Shown here: piece after piece, positions 1,879 through 41,022 of the stretch
Numbering within the stretch: position 1 is the first letter of the stretch
How the letters are laid out: each line of letters opens with the position of its first letter
Virus record (IMG/VR): IMGVR_UViG_3300047325_000048
Span: 1-41,142 of that record
Source: a virus
Reading direction: 5' to 3' (one strand)
Length of the DNA: 41,142 bases
Position numbers and translations under genes: made by a program
Notes under the pieces: generated by a model
What the model was told of the DNA's origin: nothing
The model's input: the letters and a program-made list of their open reading frames with translations, nothing else
Database searches by the model: none

Positions 1879-2083
1879 GTTTCTCACTTTGCAAAATCAC
1901 TAGGTATAGAGTGGCCCTAAAACCCACTTTTAAATTGAGCAACCCGTTGAAAAATTGAAAAAATCACCCGACTTTTAATCGAATGGCCGTGGGTTCGACC
2001 CCCACCGGGCTCACCATATTTTCAAAGGGTTACGAGCAACCCCGCGAAAGTTTCTCACTTTTATTAAATTTGGTTTCTCACTT
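1879..2083. repeat. Three GTTTCTCACTT direct repeats flanking attP (integrase arm-type sites)
   Basis: The 11-mer GTTTCTCACTT occurs exactly at 1879-1889, 2050-2060 and 2073-2083, all in the same orientation: one copy left and two copies right of the tRNA-derived core. The third overlaps the last codons of the integrase gene. Tyrosine recombinases of temperate phages bind short arm-type direct repeats on both sides of the core, and these repeats fit that role. Assignment is by position and repetition only. Confidence 0.65.
1970..2016 (+). other. attP: attP core: 3' part of a tRNA-Lys(UUU) gene
   Basis: The segment contains a tRNA 3' half: anticodon loop CTTTTAA (anticodon TTT), T-arm GTGGG-TTCGACC-CCCAC, acceptor strand CGGGCTC, then ACCA ending at 2016. 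There is no 5' half, so it is not a working tRNA gene by itself. Temperate phages commonly carry the 3' end of their target tRNA so that integration restores it. It lies 61 bp from the integrase stop. The exact core boundary cannot be set without the host attB. Confidence 0.85.
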
Positions 2084-3133
2084 GCCGGTTCCAATGCGTG
2101 CTTTGGGCATCTTCGCCATGCCGCTCTTTGCCAAGGCTTTTTGCTTGGCACCAGCCGTATATAGCTCAACCATTTGCCTGGTCTGATGACCGGTAATGGC
2201 CTGCACCTGGGCATCCGAAGCCCCCGCCTCAGCTAGCCGGGAGGCCGATGAGTGGCGTAACCCGTGGAAATGCACGTCCCCCGACAACCCAAGTTTTGCG
2301 CGGGTCGCAGCATAGACATGCGCGAAGTGATCTTTTTTCCAGCTATGGCCGTCTGCCCGGGTGCAGATCGTCACCGCCGTTTTGGGGGTCGCATCGAGCG
2401 CAGCCTTCAAAACCGGGTGAACAGGGATAACCAGAGTTTTGGCTTTTTTCCCGGCCTTGGACTGGCGCAGGGTGATCGTGGCACCGTTATAGGCCGACCA
2501 GGGCAGCTTGATCACGTCACCGCGCCGCTGCGCGGTATACAGCCCCAAAAGAACAGGGAGGGCCATACGACCAGCAAGGGGACTGGTAAAAGCCTCGATT
2601 TCAGCATCTGACCATACGCGATACGATTCGCCAGTCCGCAATTTGTCGATGCCAGCCGCCACGTTGATCGTGCAATACCGGCGATCGCGCCCCCAAACCA
2701 AAAGCACTGACATCACGGTGACAAAATAATTTGCCTTGCCCGGAGTGGCCGCCAGTTCGTCTTGGCGGCGCAGCACCCAGTCCCTCGGCAGATCAGCCAC
2801 AGGCAGATTGCCGTATCGGGGCAGAAGCCATTCGAGCACCCAAAGATAACTGGCCCGCGTGGCGGCGGCCATTTGTTTAAATTTGCCGCTTTTTTTGTAA
2901 TCCTCGATTAGAGCGCGCAGGGAACCTGGGATAGCGGTTTCGGGCTGGGATGTCGGGATTTTGCCAGCTTCAGATGCCCGGTGGATGGCGTTATAGGCTT
3001 CAAGAAAAGCCGGGGTGCCTGGGTCGCCTTTGATGCGCGTGACCCGCCCGTCGCGCCGATAATAGCCATATAATCGGCCTTTGGCGCGTTTCAGGTTAAG
3101 ATAAGGCAGCACGACCGATCCCATCAGCGGCAT
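2078..3133 (-). CDS. int: Tyrosine-family site-specific integrase
   Basis: This 351-residue protein should catalyse recombination between attP and a host tRNA-Lys gene. The catalytic set of tyrosine recombinases is visible: Arg203 in AQRRGD, a Lys near 226-230, HGLRH (His290, Arg293), GH at 315-316 and Tyr325 in VELYT. The region around 70-160 is the usual SAM-like core-binding domain, and the basic N-terminus (LNLKRAKGRLYGYYRRDGR) suits arm-type DNA binding. ATG 3133 is used; a second ATG lies three codons on. Its start overlaps the excisionase-like gene by 38 bp, and its stop lies in the third arm repeat next to attP. Confidence 0.95.
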   Translation of the reverse strand: MPLMGSVVLPYLNLKRAKGRLYGYYRRDGRVTRIKGDPGTPAFLEAYNAIHRASEAGKIPTSQPETAIPGSLRALIEDYKKSGKFKQMAAATRASYLWVLEWLLPRYGNLPVADLPRDWVLRRQDELAATPGKANYFVTVMSVLLVWGRDRRYCTINVAAGIDKLRTGESYRVWSDAEIEAFTSPLAGRMALPVLLGLYTAQRRGDVIKLPWSAYNGATITLRQSKAGKKAKTLVIPVHPVLKAALDATPKTAVTICTRADGHSWKKDHFAHVYAATRAKLGLSGDVHFHGLRHSSASRLAEAGASDAQVQAITGHQTRQMVELYTAGAKQKALAKSGMAKMPKARIGTGK

Positions 3134-3564: not shown

Positions 3565-4266
3565 TTAACCCGCATCGATCAGCATGCCGCGTTGGTCCAG
3601 ACGCGTGAGGTAGCCGGCCCATCCGTCGTCGGCCTCTTCGATTTCCTCAAAGAACCCGGTGGCACGCAGCTTTGCCTCAAGCTGGGATTTTTCGTAGCTG
3701 AATTGGTCCAGAGCTTTTTGCAGTTTTGCGATAAAATCATCATCGCGGTGAATGCGTGCGATCTTGGACGGCAGGCGGGGATGGTAGGAGTACATGTCGA
3801 TGAACTCCAGATCACAAACCAGCATCTGGCCCTGCCGCTGGCAGTGGTATTTAGTGCCGAACCCATCGAACCAATAAGACAGGTGGGTGTCGGCCTGGGG
3901 GCATTTTAACTCGATGCCTCCCGGAATGCCCTTTAGGAGGCGGTCTGGGCTGGCGCCGTACTGACCGTCATCCGAAAGCGCGAATCCAATGGACAACGTT
4001 TCCACGCCTTTTTCGATCTCATAAGCGAGCGCCGCCTGTGGCTCCAGCAGCTTGCCGCGCTCTACGGCGTGCAGATTGCCAATTTCATGGATCGTCTCGC
4101 CCAGCAGCTTTTCAGCGATCAGACGCAGCATGTAGGGCCTGGACTGCTTGCTATATTCACACGTGGTTGGCGTGATAATTTTGTCGAACTCGCTGGCCGT
4201 GGCAATGCCGCGGCGTGCCGCGTACCAAGCATCCGTGCCTTGCTCACATTCTATAATTCTAACCAT
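3565..4266 (-). CDS. YqaJ-type (lambda exonuclease-like) viral recombinase nuclease
   Basis: Predicted 5'-3' dsDNA exonuclease of the PD-(D/E)xK fold that resects ends for the annealing protein encoded just upstream. Visible marks are the N-terminal QGTDAWYAARRG, ERGKLLEPQA (Glu69, Glu75) and the core GASPDRLL followed by GGIELKCP (Asp108, Glu119, Lys121). Its length, 233 aa, is normal for the family. ATG 4266 overlaps the end of the erf-like gene by 8 bp, so the exonuclease and annealing protein are likely made together, as in lambda Red and other two-component phage recombination systems. Confidence 0.92.
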   Translation of the reverse strand: MVRIIECEQGTDAWYAARRGIATASEFDKIITPTTCEYSKQSRPYMLRLIAEKLLGETIHEIGNLHAVERGKLLEPQAALAYEIEKGVETLSIGFALSDDGQYGASPDRLLKGIPGGIELKCPQADTHLSYWFDGFGTKYHCQRQGQMLVCDLEFIDMYSYHPRLPSKIARIHRDDDFIAKLQKALDQFSYEKSQLEAKLRATGFFEEIEEADDGWAGYLTRLDQRGMLIDAG

Positions 4267-5029
4267 TGGCGCTGGCCTCCATTTCAGAAAGTTTCTTTTT
4301 CAGCGAACCGAGGGCGCGCGGGTATTCGGACATTGATAATTCATCGAGGGTATCGACCCCGCAGTATTTCAAAAACCGGCCGGTGTCCGCGTTCGTCCGT
4401 TGCATCAGTTCGATCAGCGTTTCTTTCTGCGTCTCGGTAATGGTGCGCGTGCCGACGCGTGCGGCGTTGCCGTCATTATCCTCGTTCGTCAGCGTGACGT
4501 TGAAAATCATACACGTGAGGTATCGGCGCAGATAGGAGACGGATGAGCCGAGGGCCTGGATCGGCGTTTTGTTGGCGTTGCCGCCGCTGCCGACGTTATC
4601 CAGCCCGCCGGTGAGCATGTAGGTTTCGCTATGCCCGCGAACATGGCCGACCTTGCAGGTAACGCTTACGGAGCCTTTTTCAGCTTCGTTTTGGTTGAAT
4701 GAAAGCGACAGGCCGAACTTGGTATAAACCGGCCGGATCGCAGCATCGATGGCTTCCAGCTTTGCATAACGCGTCTTGGTGTGCTTGTTCTCCGCATCGC
4801 GCACCACCGGCAGCATTTCGGCCTGTGCGGCGGTCATTGCCTGCTCAAACGCTATCTTTGCCTCGTCGGCCAACACTTTTCGCTGCATCTCAAACAGCAT
4901 CTCCAGCCGCGAGATATCGACATTCGGATCAAACGCCGCGCGCTCGATGATGTTCAACAGCGCGCCGGCATTTGAGGTGGGCAGCGCGGTAGGCAATGCC
5001 GCTTCTGGAATTTTCGTGATCTCGTTCAT
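4259..5029 (-). CDS. erf: Erf-family single-strand annealing protein
   Basis: The 256-residue protein carries the ERF core: KTRYAKLEAIDAAIRPVYTK at about 84-103, followed by GLSLSF and a conserved LGSSVSYLRRYL segment. ERF proteins bind single-stranded DNA and promote annealing in phage recombination and genome circularisation. The C-terminal part (about 195-256) is helical and less conserved. It pairs with the downstream YqaJ nuclease. ATG 5029 overlaps the stop of a 36-aa gene (ATGA), and its own stop overlaps the nuclease start. Confidence 0.92.
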   Translation of the reverse strand: MNEITKIPEAALPTALPTSNAGALLNIIERAAFDPNVDISRLEMLFEMQRKVLADEAKIAFEQAMTAAQAEMLPVVRDAENKHTKTRYAKLEAIDAAIRPVYTKFGLSLSFNQNEAEKGSVSVTCKVGHVRGHSETYMLTGGLDNVGSGGNANKTPIQALGSSVSYLRRYLTCMIFNVTLTNEDNDGNAARVGTRTITETQKETLIELMQRTNADTGRFLKYCGVDTLDELSMSEYPRALGSLKKKLSEMEASANG

Positions 5030-5417: not shown

Positions 5418-5436
5418 ATGAAAAACCTCATTAAAC
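5418..5436. repeat. 19-bp direct repeat, copy 1 (3' boundary of cassette A)
   Basis: ATGAAAAACCTCATTAAAC on the plus strand, identical to 6114-6132 over 19 bases, with mismatches on both sides. On the minus strand it spans the stop codon (TAA, 5431-5433) of the cysteine-repeat gene. See the cassette finding. Confidence 0.9.
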
Positions 5437-6102
5437 TGCGCCAGCCAGCTTCTTGATATCGGCTAAAGCGTTGGCGTCGCTCTCGTAAAATTTTCCGGGA
5501 TTTATTCTGTACCCGCTGGCCTCATAAATCAGTTGAGCGGCGAGCAGCGTATTATGAAAACGTTCCAGTGCGTATCCAGCTTCACCAGCCAAATGCACCA
5601 CCCAACCAGCGCGGCAATGCGTGGTGTTGCAAGTATGCCAAGTCGACATGTCAAGAGCGTCTGGTGTAGAAACTGCCGCGTAAACACGCTGGTGAATGTT
5701 GTCGATTTTCGGAATTACGGGAGGCGTGAAATCGCCTTGATTTTTGGATTTGTCCGAGCAGTCCGAGCAGTCCGAGCAGTCCGAGCAGCGCGAGCAGCCC
5801 GAGCAGCGCGAGCAGCGCGAGCAGCGCGAGCAGCCCGAGCAGTCCGAGCAGTCCGAGCAGTCCGAGCAGTCCGAGCAGTCCGAGCAGCCCGAGCAGCGCG
5901 AGCAGCCCGAGCAGTCCGAGCAGTCCGAGCAGTCCGAGCAGCGCGAGCAGTACGAGCAGCCCGAGCAGCCCGAGCAGTCCGAGCAGTTTATACAATTCTT
6001 GCAATCAATAAGGCTATCCAGCGCTTTTTGTGCGGCTTCGGTCGAGCCGAAATGCTCCACCGAGCATTTATTTCCGTTTGCATCTTCAATCCAAGTTGTC
6101 AT
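5431..6102 (-). CDS. Cys-Ser-x repeat protein with conserved WHxCxTTHCxAGW C-terminal domain
   Basis: The 223-residue protein has three parts: a short head (1-32), a region of 26 consecutive Cys-Ser-x triplets (x mostly D, G or R) preceded by CKNCIN, and a globular tail of about 100 residues. The tail carries VSTPDALDMSTWHTCNTTHC followed by RAGWVVHLAGEAG. The same domain ends the protein at 39503-39937. I have no functional name for it; the fixed Cys/His set suggests metal binding or disulfides. GGAGA precedes ATG 6102. Exact 19-bp direct repeats flank the gene, and the insertion altered the end of the gene upstream, so it looks like a mobile accessory cassette. Confidence 0.75.
   Translation of the reverse strand: MTTWIEDANGNKCSVEHFGSTEAAQKALDSLIDCKNCINCSDCSGCSGCSYCSRCSDCSDCSDCSGCSRCSGCSDCSDCSDCSDCSDCSGCSRCSRCSRCSGCSRCSDCSDCSDCSDKSKNQGDFTPPVIPKIDNIHQRVYAAVSTPDALDMSTWHTCNTTHCRAGWVVHLAGEAGYALERFHNTLLAAQLIYEASGYRINPGKFYESDANALADIKKLAGAV
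5752..5985 (-). repeat. 26 tandem 9-bp repeats encoding Cys-Ser-x
   Basis: The minus strand reads TGC-TCG/AGC-like-x in 26 successive 9-bp units with only the third codon varying (GAC, GGC/GGG, CGC, TAC). All six frames are open across it, which creates spurious ORFs on the plus strand (EQSEQ and AVRAVRA patterns). Because units are multiples of three, gain or loss by slippage would change protein length without frameshift. Confidence 0.9.
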
Positions 6103-6554
6103 GCCGCTTCTCCATGAAAAACCTCATTAAACCGTGTCAACCGCTCGCGCTCGTACTGTGGCCGGCGGCGGTTTGCCTCAGCTGCGATCTTCGGAATGTT
6201 GCGGCGCAGGAGAAGGAGCTTCCGCAATCCGGCCAGCCAGCGTTCGTGTGCGGCTTGGCGCAGTTTGATTTGCTGCTCTCGATAATCATCCCAATCCGCC
6301 AGCGATTTTTCCCAACCGTCCCACGGCATGCCGCGGTTCGCGAGATGTGCGCCGTCGCATGGGCGATCTTCGAAATGGATCTGGATTTCGTAGCGAACCT
6401 CGGCCCAGGCAGCGCGCGGGCGCCCGTTGGCAGCGTACCATTCTATCAGCTCGAACGCTTCCTCGCGGTCCATTTCGTAGAGGGAAAGGTCCGGGGCATC
6501 GTTATCGTCGGGCGCACCCATGTAGGGGCCAGCGCATTGCGAGAGCAGGTTCAT
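6099..6554 (-). CDS. Phage protein of unknown function with a C-terminal end replaced by cassette insertion (151 aa)
   Basis: ATG 6554 is preferred over an upstream in-frame start because GGGGG sits 5 bases before it on the minus strand and its ATG overlaps the stop of the membrane-protein gene. The protein has an acidic N-terminal part (GAPDDNDAPDLSLYEMD) and a helical, Arg-rich second half (LRKLLLLRRNIPKIAAEANR). The last codons read FNEVFH-GEAA-stop. Without the inserted cassette they would read FNEVFH-NERAA-stop, directly followed by the ATG of the 5133-5399 gene. No family recognised. Confidence 0.65.
   Translation of the reverse strand: MNLLSQCAGPYMGAPDDNDAPDLSLYEMDREEAFELIEWYAANGRPRAAWAEVRYEIQIHFEDRPCDGAHLANRGMPWDGWEKSLADWDDYREQQIKLRQAAHERWLAGLRKLLLLRRNIPKIAAEANRRRPQYERERLTRFNEVFHGEAA
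6114..6132. repeat. 19-bp direct repeat, copy 2 (5' boundary of cassette A)
   Basis: Identical to 5418-5436. On the minus strand it encodes the end of the 6099-6554 protein (RFNEVFH) and ends 11 bases before the start codon of the cysteine-repeat gene, so the cassette begins with that gene's ribosome binding site. Confidence 0.9.
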
Positions 6555-27651: not shown

Positions 27652-29825
27652 TGCCCGTTGTTCCTGATTTCGCCATTCCCGATGTCGCGCCGGATGCGCG
27701 CATGGCCTCGCTTGATCCGAATGCTGGAATTGCGGCGCCGCAAGCGTTGGCCGGCTTGGGTGAGCAGGTCCAGAAAAGCGAGGATCAGACCAGCAGCACT
27801 TTGCTGAACCTCCAGCAGATGAAGGATCAGGCGGCGGTTGCTGACAAGATCAACCAATACCAGACCGCCGCCAATGCGAATTATCAGCAAGGTGGCTTGT
27901 TCACGCTGCAGGGCAAGAACGCGATTGATGCGTATCCTCAGGCGGTGCAGAACTTGGAGAACATCCGTTCATCGCTGATTGCGGGTGCATCGAACCCCTA
28001 TGAGCAAGAGGCGTTGGCTTCGTCTCTGAATGACCAGCAGGCGCGCGAGTTCCGCACCATGGGGTCGTTTTATTCCGATCAGGTCCGCCAGTATCACGAC
28101 GATTCGCTTGGTGCGTTGGCGGACACCGCAACCCAGACCGCGACCTTGAATTACAATAATCCGGATGCGCTGAGCACGTCCCTGGCGACGGTGCAACATG
28201 CCGCCATGCTTCAAGCGCAGACGCGCGGTTACAACCCGGACATGACGAATCAATATGTTCTCGGTGCGACCTCGAAAGCCGCGAGCAGCTTCATCGATGC
28301 GGCGATGGTCAATGATCCAGGACTTGCTTCAACGTACCTGACCAAATACAAATCCGATCTTGACCCCGCGACCTACATGGAGCTGAGCGGGCGCGTGCGC
28401 CAGGCGGTTTTGCCGGGTGCTGCCGATGAGGTGGCCGGCGCGGTGCTTGGTACGAATGCATCCGTGGTGCCGCAAGATGTGATGGATCAGATCGCTCAAA
28501 ACGAGAGCGGCAACAAACCGGGCGAGATTTCATCCACCGGCGCGGTCGGGCCATACCAAATCGAACCCTCGACCGGCGAGGCCGCGGCCAAGGAAATAGG
28601 CGTGCCGTGGGACCCGCAGCGCGCGTTGAACGATCCTGCTTACGGACGGCAGATTGCCACCCGGATCATGGACGACAACCTGAAAACCTTCGCCGGCATG
28701 CCGTACCAATATCAGGCGGCGGTTGCGGCGTATAATGCCGGGCCAAACGGTGCGGGCGTTGCACATCTCGCGCAAACCGGAGATCCGTCGCAGCTGCCGG
28801 CCGAGACGCAGGCCTATCTTCCGAAATTCGATCTATCCGGCGCCGCACCGGTGCCGGGTACGGCTGGGCAGTCCATCGACCAGCAGGGGCAGAATCTGCA
28901 GGCGTTGATGCAGCAGGGCGGCGAGGCGCTGGCGGCGCGGTTTCCCGATCAGCCGAACGCTTACGAGATGGGGTCGCAGGCGGTCTATTCGCAGTATATC
29001 CGCTCGAAATCGGCCTATGATGATCAGCAGTCCGCCGCGCTCAATGCCGTCACCAATGCGATTGATGCCAACCATGTGCAGAACGTTGGCGATCTGATCA
29101 AGCTGGGTGGCGACGTGGCGCAGTCCTATCTCGCGCTGGAACCGGAAAAGCAGGCAGGGGTCATGGCGCTGATTGCCAAGAACCAGCCGGGCGCGGACAC
29201 GTCTTGGTCACCGCAGAAGCAGCAGACTTATTACAATCTGCTCGGGCAATCCGTAACGAACCCCAGCGCGTTTCAAAAGCTTAATCTAATGGACCCGCAG
29301 GTGATCAACAGCCTGACGCCGGACCAGCAGACCACGCTTATGAACAAGCAGGCGTCGATGGCGAAAGGCTCGGACAAGGGGCTTTCGCCGGACGACATCA
29401 ACGGCGCGCTGTCGTGGGTAGCGCCGATACTGAAAGGCGCTGGCTTCAATCCGAAAAACAAGGACGATCCGGCCTACCAACAGTTTGCAGGTGCTTACGC
29501 GCAGGATCTGCAAGCCTACTCTGACAAGAACGGTCATATGCCGGATGCGGTCGATCAGCAAAAGATTGCGCAGCGTCTGCTTGTTCAGGGCTATTCCGGC
29601 ACCGGCGGCATGTTCTTTGGGCCAAAAAAGGAATCGCTCTACCAAGCCGAAGGGCCGAACGGGATTGATCCCAATTTCAGCGCGAACATCCCCGCGCCGG
29701 CGCTGTCTCAGATCAACGCCGCATACCAGAAAGCCACCGGAAAATTGCCAGACATCAAAACCGCAACGGCGATCTATTTGCAAAACATGGCGCCGGGTGA
29801 CGATAGCCAGCAGGCCAGCCAGTGA
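27651..29825 (+). CDS. Internal core/ejection protein with embedded lytic transglycosylase domain
   Basis: The 724-residue protein occupies the gp15 position. Residues 1-260 are helical and Gln-rich. Residues 274-395 form an SLT domain: MDQIAQNESGNKPGEISSTG with catalytic Glu285, AVGPYQIEPSTG, and YQAAVAAYNAGPNGAG. The remainder (to 724) is again helical. SLT domains cut peptidoglycan so that the ejection channel can pass the periplasm. In T7 the domain belongs to gp16; here it is in the gene before. Confidence 0.88.
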   Translation: MPVVPDFAIPDVAPDARMASLDPNAGIAAPQALAGLGEQVQKSEDQTSSTLLNLQQMKDQAAVADKINQYQTAANANYQQGGLFTLQGKNAIDAYPQAVQNLENIRSSLIAGASNPYEQEALASSLNDQQAREFRTMGSFYSDQVRQYHDDSLGALADTATQTATLNYNNPDALSTSLATVQHAAMLQAQTRGYNPDMTNQYVLGATSKAASSFIDAAMVNDPGLASTYLTKYKSDLDPATYMELSGRVRQAVLPGAADEVAGAVLGTNASVVPQDVMDQIAQNESGNKPGEISSTGAVGPYQIEPSTGEAAAKEIGVPWDPQRALNDPAYGRQIATRIMDDNLKTFAGMPYQYQAAVAAYNAGPNGAGVAHLAQTGDPSQLPAETQAYLPKFDLSGAAPVPGTAGQSIDQQGQNLQALMQQGGEALAARFPDQPNAYEMGSQAVYSQYIRSKSAYDDQQSAALNAVTNAIDANHVQNVGDLIKLGGDVAQSYLALEPEKQAGVMALIAKNQPGADTSWSPQKQQTYYNLLGQSVTNPSAFQKLNLMDPQVINSLTPDQQTTLMNKQASMAKGSDKGLSPDDINGALSWVAPILKGAGFNPKNKDDPAYQQFAGAYAQDLQAYSDKNGHMPDAVDQQKIAQRLLVQGYSGTGGMFFGPKKESLYQAEGPNGIDPNFSANIPAPALSQINAAYQKATGKLPDIKTATAIYLQNMAPGDDSQQASQ

Positions 29826-38400: not shown

Positions 38401-38401
<1 letters not shown>
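38033..38401 (+). CDS. Inner-membrane spanin (Rz-like)
   Basis: ATG 38033 follows AGGAGG. The N-terminus is one membrane anchor (DAIAGLAVGLVLTGLIGFAA), followed by a long Ala/Gln-rich coiled coil (QIKIAQVQLTDIEAVNQQDA) that should span the periplasm. This is the normal build of Rz i-spanins, which fuse inner and outer membranes after wall degradation. The stop codon overlaps by one base the ATG of the lipoprotein o-spanin (TAATG). Confidence 0.8.
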
Positions 38402-38726
<325 letters not shown>

Positions 38727-38730
<4 letters not shown>

Positions 38731-39005
38731 CGCCACGTAGCCTTGTCGAGCCGCCGCCGGTGGAAATGATCCCAAAAGACCTGAACCAAGCCCTGATTGC
38801 CATAGCTCAATTGCAGGTGACGTGTCGGAATCAAGAGCAGAAGCTCACCGAACAGGATCAGGATATCGGCTATCTCAAGACCGTGATCAGCACGGCCAAT
38901 GGGTGGCGCCAGGCACTGCTCTGGCTCGGCGCGCTAACCGTGGGGGCGTCCACGGTCTATTACTCGCTGACCAACAGCTTTCCTTGGCATAAGGGGCCGG
39001 GCTGA
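38727..39005 (+). CDS. Coiled-coil protein with C-terminal membrane helix, lysis module (92 aa)
   Basis: ATG 38727 overlaps the spanin stop (ATGA). Residues 15-50 form a coiled coil (LNQALIAIAQLQVTCRNQEQ, KLTEQDQDIGYL) and residues 62-83 one membrane helix (ALLWLGALTVGASTVYYSLT). This topology is common for holin or antiholin-like proteins next to endolysins; which of the three membrane proteins here is the holin is open. Confidence 0.6.
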
Positions 39006-39472
39006 TGAGTGACGCTCTCAGCACCGCTGCCAGGCTGGCGGAGAGCTTTGAGGGTTTCCGTGCCACGCCCTACCAGGATGTCGCGGGATATTGGACGATT
39101 GGGTATGGTTCCCGGGTGGACATCAACGGCCAGCCTGTGACCGGGCAAACGGCGGCCGTATCGCCCAGCCAAGCGGACTGGATGATGCAACGCGACCTCA
39201 AGGCCGCGTTTTCCGAGATCGCGGCGACGGTGCGGGTGACGCTGACGAGCAATGAGACTGCTGCGTTTGCGGATTTCATCTACAATCTTGGCGCCGGGAA
39301 CTGGCAGGCATCGAGCCTGCTGCGGCTATTGAACGCCGGAAATTACGCCGGAGCGATTGCGCAATTGGATTTGTGGGACCGGGCCGGTGGGCAGGTTTTT
39401 GCCGGGCTGCTACGTCGCCGGCAGGCTGAGACTGCGCTGGCCGAGACGCCGGATGGTGCGCAGCAGGCGTAG
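39005..39472 (+). CDS. Endolysin, T4-type lysozyme (glycoside hydrolase 24)
   Basis: The 155-residue protein has the catalytic triad of T4 lysozyme with exact spacing: Glu16 in ESFEGF, Asp25 in PYQDVAG, Thr31 in WTIGYG. Later, FIYNLGAGNW and LLRRRQAE are family motifs. It cuts the glycan of murein. There is no signal peptide or SAR helix, so release depends on a holin. It ends the rightward late operon; a weak hairpin (TCAAT/ATTGA) follows before the convergent gene. Confidence 0.93.
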   Translation: MSDALSTAARLAESFEGFRATPYQDVAGYWTIGYGSRVDINGQPVTGQTAAVSPSQADWMMQRDLKAAFSEIAATVRVTLTSNETAAFADFIYNLGAGNWQASSLLRLLNAGNYAGAIAQLDLWDRAGGQVFAGLLRRRQAETALAETPDGAQQA

Positions 39473-39497: not shown

Positions 39498-39515
39498 GGG
39501 GGTTAGGTGAACTCA
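39498..39515. repeat. 18-bp direct repeat, copy 1 (3' boundary of cassette B)
   Basis: GGGGGTTAGGTGAACTCA, identical to 39947-39964, with different bases on both sides. It spans the stop codon (39503-39505) of the leftward gene. Confidence 0.9.
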
Positions 39516-39937
39516 ACCAACACGCTTTGCAGCCATGCGCGCGCCTTGTCTGTTGGCCAGTAAAATTTCTCAGCCACGTCAAGATCGAGCAGCGCAAGGC
39601 CAGCACCCGCCGAGCCAAACATGCGCTCAAGCTCAGCCCCTTCCGCGCCAGCTAAATGAATCGCCCATCCCGCAACGCAATGTGTAGTCTTGCACTTGTG
39701 CCAGTTTTCCATGTCTAAAGCATCGGGCGTTGCCAATGCGTGACGCGCAACATCAACCAGCCGAGTGCGTGCAACATCGGGATCAGGCCACGCGAAAGGG
39801 TATCCCCCGACGCTGGTGAGTGCCGTAAGCCCCGCGTCAGCGGCCTTGATGTAGAGGCTACCCCCGACGCTGGTGAGTGTGCGGGCGTAGTCAAAATTGA
39901 ATTTCGTTACAACTAAGTTGCCTTCGTGGTGAGTCAT
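39503..39937 (-). CDS. LTSVGG-repeat protein with the same WHxCxTTHCxAGW domain (paralogue of 5431-6102)
   Basis: The 144-residue protein begins with two units of an LTSVGG solenoid-like repeat (LTSVGGSLYIKAADAGLTAL, then TSVGGYPFAW); the underlying DNA has two exact 19-bp copies (39804-39822, 39861-39879). The C-terminal part, LATPDALDMENWHKCKTTHC then VAGWAIHLAGAEG, aligns with the tail of the cysteine-repeat protein, while the N-terminal parts are unrelated. GGAG precedes ATG 39937. The gene runs against the lysis operon and is bounded by exact 18-bp direct repeats. Function unknown. Confidence 0.75.
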   Translation of the reverse strand: MTHHEGNLVVTKFNFDYARTLTSVGGSLYIKAADAGLTALTSVGGYPFAWPDPDVARTRLVDVARHALATPDALDMENWHKCKTTHCVAGWAIHLAGAEGAELERMFGSAGAGLALLDLDVAEKFYWPTDKARAWLQSVLVEFT

Positions 39938-39946
39938 GCTCGCTCC

Positions 39947-39964
39947 GGGGGTTAGGTGAACTCA
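39947..39964. repeat. 18-bp direct repeat, copy 2 (5' boundary of cassette B)
   Basis: Identical to 39498-39515. It covers the stop codon (39962-39964) of the upstream leftward gene and ends 9 bases before the start codon of the LTSVGG gene. Confidence 0.9.
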
Positions 39965-40237
39965 GGCGACGGCAGCAGGAAAATCTTCACGGTCTAGGCT
40001 CTCTCCTGGCAGTATCGCCTTTTTTGCACCCTGAAGCGTAAGGTAGAAATAATCATCACTACCCATAAGTAAGTGTTCGCCTGCCGCCACGATCGCGTCT
40101 TTGGCCTGCACCATCGCGCACCAATCCTCATAATCGAAATGGCCTTTTCCTGCCACAAAGCGGTTGCGGTAGCTTACCCTCTGATTGTTTGGAAGGCCAA
40201 GTGCATGGCGAGCTAAGTCAATTTGTCGAGGGGTCAT
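39962..40237 (-). CDS. Accessory phage protein of unknown function (91 aa)
   Basis: ATG 40237 is chosen because GGAG lies 5 bases upstream; a longer frame to 40315 has no such site. The sequence PRQIDLARHALGLPNNQRVS, YRNRFVAGKGHFDYEDW and the later YFYLTLQGAKKAIL follow a pattern I associate with small uncharacterised proteins of several prophages. It is the first gene of the short leftward unit with a good promoter upstream, so it may be expressed in the lysogen. Confidence 0.65.
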   Translation of the reverse strand: MTPRQIDLARHALGLPNNQRVSYRNRFVAGKGHFDYEDWCAMVQAKDAIVAAGEHLLMGSDDYFYLTLQGAKKAILPGESLDREDFPAAVA

Positions 40238-40340
40238 GTCGTCTCCGGCAGTTGTTGGACAAGTAGGCCGGGGCTTCCACCCGCTGCGCGCCGGGACAGT
40301 TACCGGCGCTCTCAAGCCCTAGAGTCGGGCCGCGAGCGTA

Positions 40341-40407: not shown

Positions 40408-41022
40408 ATGGCAGATTCGAGTTACATGAGAGAAGCGCTGGGTCTACCCAGCATCAAAACGCAGAAGGAGGCGTTGGGGCTGGACAAGATTGACGAGCAT
40501 GATCCGGTCTATATCGACCTCAACCCGAAGCGGAAGCGATCCACACCGGCCGAGCCTTACCCGGAGCTTGCCGAGGTTGTTCGAGCGATCCGCGAGGGTG
40601 AGAAACTGCGGGTATACGGCCCAGAGATTCTAGGCGGCTCGGACACTCAAATTTTGGCGGTTATGCAGGCTGTGGGCGCCAAAGGAGCCAGCATATACGA
40701 CGCTGTGGCCGACAAGGTTGTGGTGTGGTCGGCGGAGGCTTTAGAGGCCCTGGCATGGGCGCAGCGCGGCGAGGCAACCCACCGCAGCACGGCACTCAGG
40801 AAGGCGCGCATCCGGCGGGCCGAGCTTGGCCGAACTGGCGGACCTGCGCCGAAGCTGGACAAGGTTAAGAACCCGAAGGCGTTCGCTGCCGCTCTGAAGG
40901 TCTGGCTCGACCCGGCACTTACTGGCGATGCCGCCGCCGATAAGATCGGCATTTCCCCGTCCACCGCGTACCGCAAGCTCGGGCCGCGCGATCAACCTAT
41001 TTTTGGAAGGAAGCCAAAATAA
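40408..41022 (+). CDS. HTH protein resembling the C-terminal part of a serine recombinase (204 aa)
   Basis: ATG 40408 follows AGGA by 6 bases. The region 75-150 (LRVYGPEILGGSDTQILAVM, then a basic STALRKARIRRAELGRTGG) is reminiscent of the late catalytic/E-helix part of resolvases, and the end DAAADKIGISPSTAYRKLG is a resolvase-type HTH. However, the N-terminal YxRxS motif with the catalytic serine is missing, so recombinase activity is unlikely. It probably acts as a DNA-binding regulator at the head of the small-gene operon. The DUF551-like gene starts in its stop codon (TAATG). Confidence 0.55.
   Translation: MADSSYMREALGLPSIKTQKEALGLDKIDEHDPVYIDLNPKRKRSTPAEPYPELAEVVRAIREGEKLRVYGPEILGGSDTQILAVMQAVGAKGASIYDAVADKVVVWSAEALEALAWAQRGEATHRSTALRKARIRRAELGRTGGPAPKLDKVKNPKAFAAALKVWLDPALTGDAAADKIGISPSTAYRKLGPRDQPIFGRKPK

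Follow-up and report, generated by a model that had tools for sequence, protein, structure and literature searches.

A single small gene of this virus, gene B, is enclosed by two identical 18-bp sequences, which raises the question of what these repeats are and how the gene came to lie between them. A sequence-only reading of the locus had proposed that gene B belongs to a mobile family and that its insertion duplicated a target at the end of the upstream gene. The window, i.e. the whole stretch of 41,142 nucleotides analysed here, is a complete IMG/VR virus record. The exact repeat and the gene coordinates confirmed the described layout. The sequence TGAGTTCACCTAACCCCC (minus strand) is present as a perfect direct repeat; the ATG of gene B lies 9 bases past the inner copy with GGAGCGAGC in between, its TAA (39505-39503) falls within the outer copy, and the TGA of the upstream gene P0002 (39964-39962) falls within the inner copy. 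Allowing up to three mismatches, no further copy of the 18-mer was detected in the window, and none appeared in 100 dinucleotide shuffles. Recurrence of 18-mers in the window is rare, except for the 9-base tandem array of gene A and a few other pairs, and shuffled windows contained on average 0.03 repeated 18-mers. The 18-bp repeat pair is far beyond chance.

Comparison with other viral sequences revealed that the 18-mer is a copy of a recurring intergenic element, hereafter E, which reads approximately TGAGTCCACCTAACCCCC and is followed by GGAG. Gene junctions in at least seven other phage records carry E, and in five of these records hardly any DNA other than one adjacent gene is shared with the window. 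In L174, an RNA-ligase gene (Pfam RLIG1, 4e-12) is flanked by two exact TGAGTCCACCTAACCCCC copies, with the stop geometry seen around gene B and with GGAG and a start codon after the first copy. The same ligase gene in L179, whose neighbours are unlike those in L174, is preceded by E and followed by a variant, and a further variant lies one gene upstream. Additional copies separate pterin-synthase-like and unknown genes in L192, L194 and L197, three loci reached via relatives of the 40408-41022 gene. Apart from G001 and G003, the records that contain L005 and L007 respectively, E-bearing records had about 610 bp at most, or nothing detectable, in common with the window, and little or no window DNA beyond the resolvase-like gene. 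The repeat is not specific to the gene B site, since the element stands around other genes in L174, L179, L192 and L194, and the interpretation of the gene B repeats as a target duplication fails on the same grounds, the element flanking an RNA ligase in L174 and L179 and separating genes in L192, L194 and L197. As a main reading, target-site duplication by gene B is rejected because E surrounds unrelated genes.

Features of the window discussed in the text (positions are those of the window; E, recurring boundary element)
Feature	Coordinates	Strand	Description
Tyrosine integrase	2078-3133		beside a tRNA-type att site
RecE/exonuclease-family protein	3565-4266	minus	partner of the annealing protein; phrog_149, 2e-31
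Erf-like single-strand annealing protein	4259-5029	minus	candidate recombinase; phrog_155, 9e-40
Cassette A repeat, outer copy	5418-5436		runs on into FNEVFHNERAA-stop on the minus strand, in the frame of the upstream gene
Gene A	5431-6102	minus	comparison cassette; C-terminal domain as in gene B, with a 9-base array of Cys repeats
Cassette A repeat, inner copy	6114-6132		3′ end of the upstream gene
Lysozyme (endolysin)	39005-39472	plus	convergent neighbour; last gene common to the window and L005
E, outer copy	39498-39515	minus	downstream of gene B, on the lysozyme side; exact repeat; L005 homology stops within it
Gene B	39503-39937	minus	144 aa; C-terminal WHxCxTTHCxAGW domain; phrog_31265, 3e-11
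E, inner copy	39947-39964	minus	between P0002 and gene B; exact repeat
P0002, gene upstream of gene B	39962-40237	minus	91 aa; unknown function; phrog_13561
Possible degenerate first E	40242-40263	minus	CTTGTCCAACAACTGCCGGAGA; before P0002; start codon at offset 26
Degenerate serine-recombinase-like protein	40408-41022	plus	divergent from the E array

To delimit the element, viral contigs were searched with GGGGGTTAGGTGRACWY, which returned 27 stretches, many of them chance matches or located inside coding frames. A matrix built from 14 copies was evaluated in a leave-one-phage-out test. The elements of each seed phage ranked as the best hits with 14.5-30.5 bits, besides the weak copy at 40263, and all lay at gene junctions. 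With matrices made from other phages only, the inner window copy scored 25.6 bits and the outer copy 16.7 bits against 15.3 in shuffles, a thin margin. Shuffled sequences scored far below G004 (L174), the G005 copies, G008 and the inner window copy, whereas the margin was thin for the weakest copy of G006 (14.9 versus 13.7) and for G011 (18.3 versus 17.9). Records bearing E are few and all are metagenome or provirus contigs, with possible assembly errors, and several of them were found via E or a neighbouring gene. No match to E was obtained in INPHARED phages or PLSDB plasmids. Scanning genome contigs with the single strict variant GAGTCCCACAANNNCCCGGAG gave 10 scattered hits that we judged to be chance, and the hits of a viral scan with GAGTCCCACAANNNCCCGG beyond L179 and L204 (the L194 contig) also look like chance. 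Rfam searches of the window and nine loci placed no family at E, nor in the L194 non-coding stretch.

The position of E relative to genes is largely fixed. The preceding frame ends at offset 0 (TGA) or 10 (TAA) of the element in 13 of the 19 listed copies, and the next start codon lies 26-28 nt from the beginning of E in seven of the ten copies that have a gene start after them. E carries no Shine-Dalgarno sequence of its own, the GGAG coming after it, and it occurs in one orientation only, which is that of the genes. It was judged by eye to be non-palindromic, and up to four strong copies are present per genome. Some copies follow the final gene of their array (window 39515, L179 and L194), with no long-frame start close behind. 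With 12.8 bits, the candidate copy upstream of P0002 lies inside the shuffled range (best 15.3) and is not significant by score; because of this, its assignment to E relies on its position and its likeness to the L194 copy GAGTCCCACAACTGCCCGGAG. The array of the window may thus read E - P0002 - E - gene B - E, with a weak first E. Two E-like sites enclose ~100 bp in which no gene is evident on the minus strand of G007 (~318-441) and G011 (~1102-1225) (L193 and L197). This stretch is conserved between two otherwise unrelated phages and is perhaps a small RNA; it matched no Rfam family.

We then asked where homology between E-bearing loci ends. The nearest relative of the window, L005, is 99.6% identical to it across the lysozyme gene, and the two sequences diverge inside E, at 39509-39512; L005 has one E beside the lysozyme gene and different DNA beyond. 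The cassette-free state that had been predicted, P0002 - single repeat - lysozyme, was not found in viral contigs. The ligase genes of L174 and L179 share ~77% DNA identity, and their homology, from 239 to 835 of L174, extends from the start of the first E (239) into the second E (829-846). The first E is identical at 21 of 21 bases in spite of the divergence of the gene. Hence in both comparisons, window/L005 and L174/L179, a short shared sequence is present at the joints of exchanged modules, and the breaks are inside E. No E was detected at 30 other homologous ligase loci (a few near-duplicates are among them, and the last seven loci are outside this count), nor, by pattern search or inspection of ends, at the A/B-domain homologues fetched from elsewhere. 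Since homologues of gene B and of the ligase occur without E, the element belongs to the array and not to a gene family. All in all, these data show that E recurs at junctions around unrelated genes in otherwise unrelated phages and that the homology breaks examined are located inside it.

The family relationship between genes A and B held up, with 26 of 43 identical residues around WHxCxTTHCxAGW (pairwise E-value 3e-17), and so did the observation that the 19-bp repeat of cassette A is unrelated in sequence to that of gene B. The two cassettes had also been said to correspond at their boundaries; the common GGAG...GCATGAC is indeed present, but it consists merely of a Shine-Dalgarno sequence plus ATG-AC and carries little weight. 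From its sequence, the outer copy of the cassette A repeat looks like the original 3′ end of the upstream gene. Clear cassette-A-like cases were L154 (2517, 3215) and L157 (2441, 3222), with direct repeats of 16-19 bp, each of a different sequence. The repeats of A, L154 and L157 cover the gene's own stop codon and lie just upstream of the gene, and in A and L154 they also include the end of an unrelated upstream gene, a possible duplication of that end on insertion. As a trait of the family, flanking repeats showed a weak excess: repeats of at least 10 bp flank 5 of 56 A/B homologues and 9 of 576 control genes (p = 0.005, uncorrected; over the different cut-offs used, p ranged from 0.005 to 0.065), and the other 51 homologues do not have one. 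The A/B family may therefore have a separate tendency toward duplicated gene ends, which leaves E unexplained, and insertion at gene ends with a duplicated end may hold for gene A. Within gene A, positions 5716-6030 form the 9-base tandem array, which codes for CSxCSx-type Cys repeats and varies in length among homologues. Gene B contains an exact 19-bp repeat (39804-39822 and 39861-39879), whose two copies each encode an LTSVGG motif. The fold obtained for gene B with 40 relatives was helical and had no PDB match. P0001 had no match in phages or viral contigs, its relatives being reached only via the domain shared with gene A.

The protein encoded divergently from the array (40408-41022) is without the N-terminal YARxST catalytic-serine segment and keeps the long helix and a C-terminal HTH. 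Its model was weak (mean pLDDT 57.7) and best matched gamma-delta/Tn3 resolvases in the PDB (E-value 3e-3). A plain Pfam search gave nothing significant, and alignment with the intact serine recombinases of L179 and L007 reached 94.9% in hhalign. The YxRxS motif is absent because the N-terminus is replaced, both in the window and in four relatives (L192-L195); homology beyond the catalytic-serine segment extends weakly into the replaced N-terminus. An intact serine recombinase occupies the same place in L179 (Pfam Resolvase, 4e-43) and in L007. When the profile of the 40408 protein was run against 398 sampled Pseudomonadota genomes, only weak matches were recovered (E-values 5e-8 to 6e-4) and no host was identified; the best of them, L290, is by sequence an ordinary intact resolvase. 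Over 99 bp at the end of the resolvase-like gene, G006 (28479-28577) and G011 (2687-2785), two otherwise unrelated phages, are 99% identical, which suggests a recent exchange.

We consider it probable that gene B is a unit within a small array of accessory genes, that copies of E are the boundaries of this array and that its genes are exchanged by recombination at E. What stands of the sequence-only reading is gene B as a discrete accessory-gene unit between direct repeats, and not a target duplication by insertion of the A/B family. E would separate the genes of an array and often close it, spanning the preceding stop codon and abutting the following ribosome-binding site, and we infer that genes are gained, lost and exchanged via recombination between its copies. 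The simplest agent would be the phage's own Erf with its exonuclease, acting by annealing at short identity. An E-bounded unit that met a single E would give gene - E - new gene - E, and the incoming gene would still end correctly because two of the three frames meet a stop codon in E. Rad52-like recombinases, Erf included, carry out exchange at short or diverged homology (PMC3945230), and the minimal efficient pairing segment of Redbeta is 23-27 bp (PMC3945230). With 18-21 bp, E is below this minimum, so that exchange by annealing would be inefficient. E may be conserved for translation or regulation, with recombination as a by-product. As a guess from its position, the resolvase-like neighbour may bind E or control the array.

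Resolvase-type sites are typically palindromic. The most serious competitor of exchange at E is that the element is mainly a regulatory or translational signal, comparable to the Start-Associated Sequences (SAS) of cluster K mycobacteriophages or serving the divergent resolvase-like HTH protein as its operator, that the array genes retain it out of need, and that joints fall within it simply where genes end. The fixed distance to the start codon with an abutting ribosome-binding site, the single orientation along the genes, a first E of the ligase cassette that is better conserved than the gene it serves, and the DNA-binding-type protein adjoining the array in the window, L192, L193, L194 and L195 are all in agreement with such a signal, and SAS are likewise short, asymmetric and lineage-specific, sometimes with an upstream stop codon (PMC3203893). 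In contrast, a start signal need not follow the last gene, as E does in the window (39515), L179 and L194; the Shine-Dalgarno sequence is outside the element, and E lacks the palindromic form of resolvase-type sites. We regard a mainly regulatory role as rather unlikely.

Lower probabilities apply to two further accounts. The adjacent serine-recombinase-family protein, or an intact ancestor, could recombine E sites as in an integron, since the window, L192-L195, L179 and L007 all have an intact serine recombinase or a degenerate relative next to the array and divergent from it, each unit is a gene with a directly oriented E, and some arrays end with E. However, the proteins of the window and L192-L195 lack the catalytic-serine segment, E is non-palindromic, and L192-L195 were found via the recombinase-like gene, so that the association is independent for L179 and L007 only. 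An integron-like system is improbable, and equally so its specific form, a phage-borne system in which a serine-recombinase-family protein (or intact relatives) recognises the 18-bp stop-start E and there inserts, removes or shuffles single accessory genes; if true, phages with no other relationship would have a plug-in gene array in common. Even more doubtful is the insertion of gene B, as a member of a mobile family, at the 3′ end of P0002 with duplication of an 18-bp target. The other 16-19 bp direct repeats that flank gene A, L154 and L157 at gene ends, and the outer copy of cassette A with its likeness to an original gene end, speak for it; against it, the gene B repeat recurs around unrelated genes in unrelated phages, most homologues (51/56) are without flanking repeats of at least 10 bp, and the cassette encodes no transposase or endonuclease. 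Exchange by recombination at E remains the reading that we prefer.

The E family appears to be undescribed, although the kind of element is known: for described elements of this kind, the literature yielded only LRRHood/Island3-type inserts, SAS and integron-type precedents. In mycobacteriophage LRRHood, an insert is flanked by 29-bp repeats, of which Cali has a single copy at the end of a gene, and in mycobacteriophage Island3, genes 67 and 68 have a common 60-bp 3′ end (PMC3029335). As with E, the accessory gene in these cases has direct repeats on both sides, which include the 3′ ends of the upstream and the inserted gene, and the route that has been proposed is homologous recombination at the short repeat. 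Their repeats are peculiar to one site, whereas E is found at many junctions, with fixed stop/start geometry, in unrelated backbones. SAS of cluster K mycobacteriophages resemble E in being short, asymmetric, lineage-specific and intergenic before accessory genes in one orientation, and in sometimes spanning the upstream stop codon (PMC3203893). Compared by eye, the SAS consensus GGGATAGGAGCCC and E (TGAGTCCACCTAACCCCC) are unrelated; SAS contain the Shine-Dalgarno sequence, precede starts and number 11-19 per genome, whereas E precedes the Shine-Dalgarno sequence, also follows last genes and has up to four strong copies (PMC3203893). Identification of E as a Start-Associated Sequence was rejected, given the different consensus, the GGAG outside E and the copies after the last gene. 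Arrays of integron attC sites are similar to the E array in the head-to-tail order of gene plus trailing site and in the adjacent, divergent recombinase-family gene. An attC site folds, whereas E is 18 bp long and judged by eye non-palindromic, and the tyrosine integrase (IntI) of integrons has as its counterpart at the E array a serine-recombinase-family neighbour, degenerate in the window. No tyrosine integron integrase was found at the E array, the tyrosine integrase of the window lying elsewhere (2078-3133). Most joints of mosaic phages are without shared sequence, and the role of short boundary sequences in exchange is debated (PMC3029335). Because E crosses lineages, has a defined geometry and contains the joints of two comparisons, it makes the question of boundary sequences testable, and its matrix is a handle for finding accessory genes in such phages.

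Several minor observations were made in the course of the analysis. A putative tRNA-like 3′ end near the integrase (~1968-2016) resembles tRNA-Lys. In the phage contig of L197, two copies of a CRISPR-like repeat (CCCCGCGTGTGCGGGGAAC), read by eye, lie ~61 bp apart at ~540-640. In the lysis region, a predicted tRNA-Met (38402-38479) overlaps the start of the ORF at 38401-38730, as it does in L005; the first codons of this ORF would be the tRNA gene and its later part is like a lipoprotein signal (LLALLAGC).
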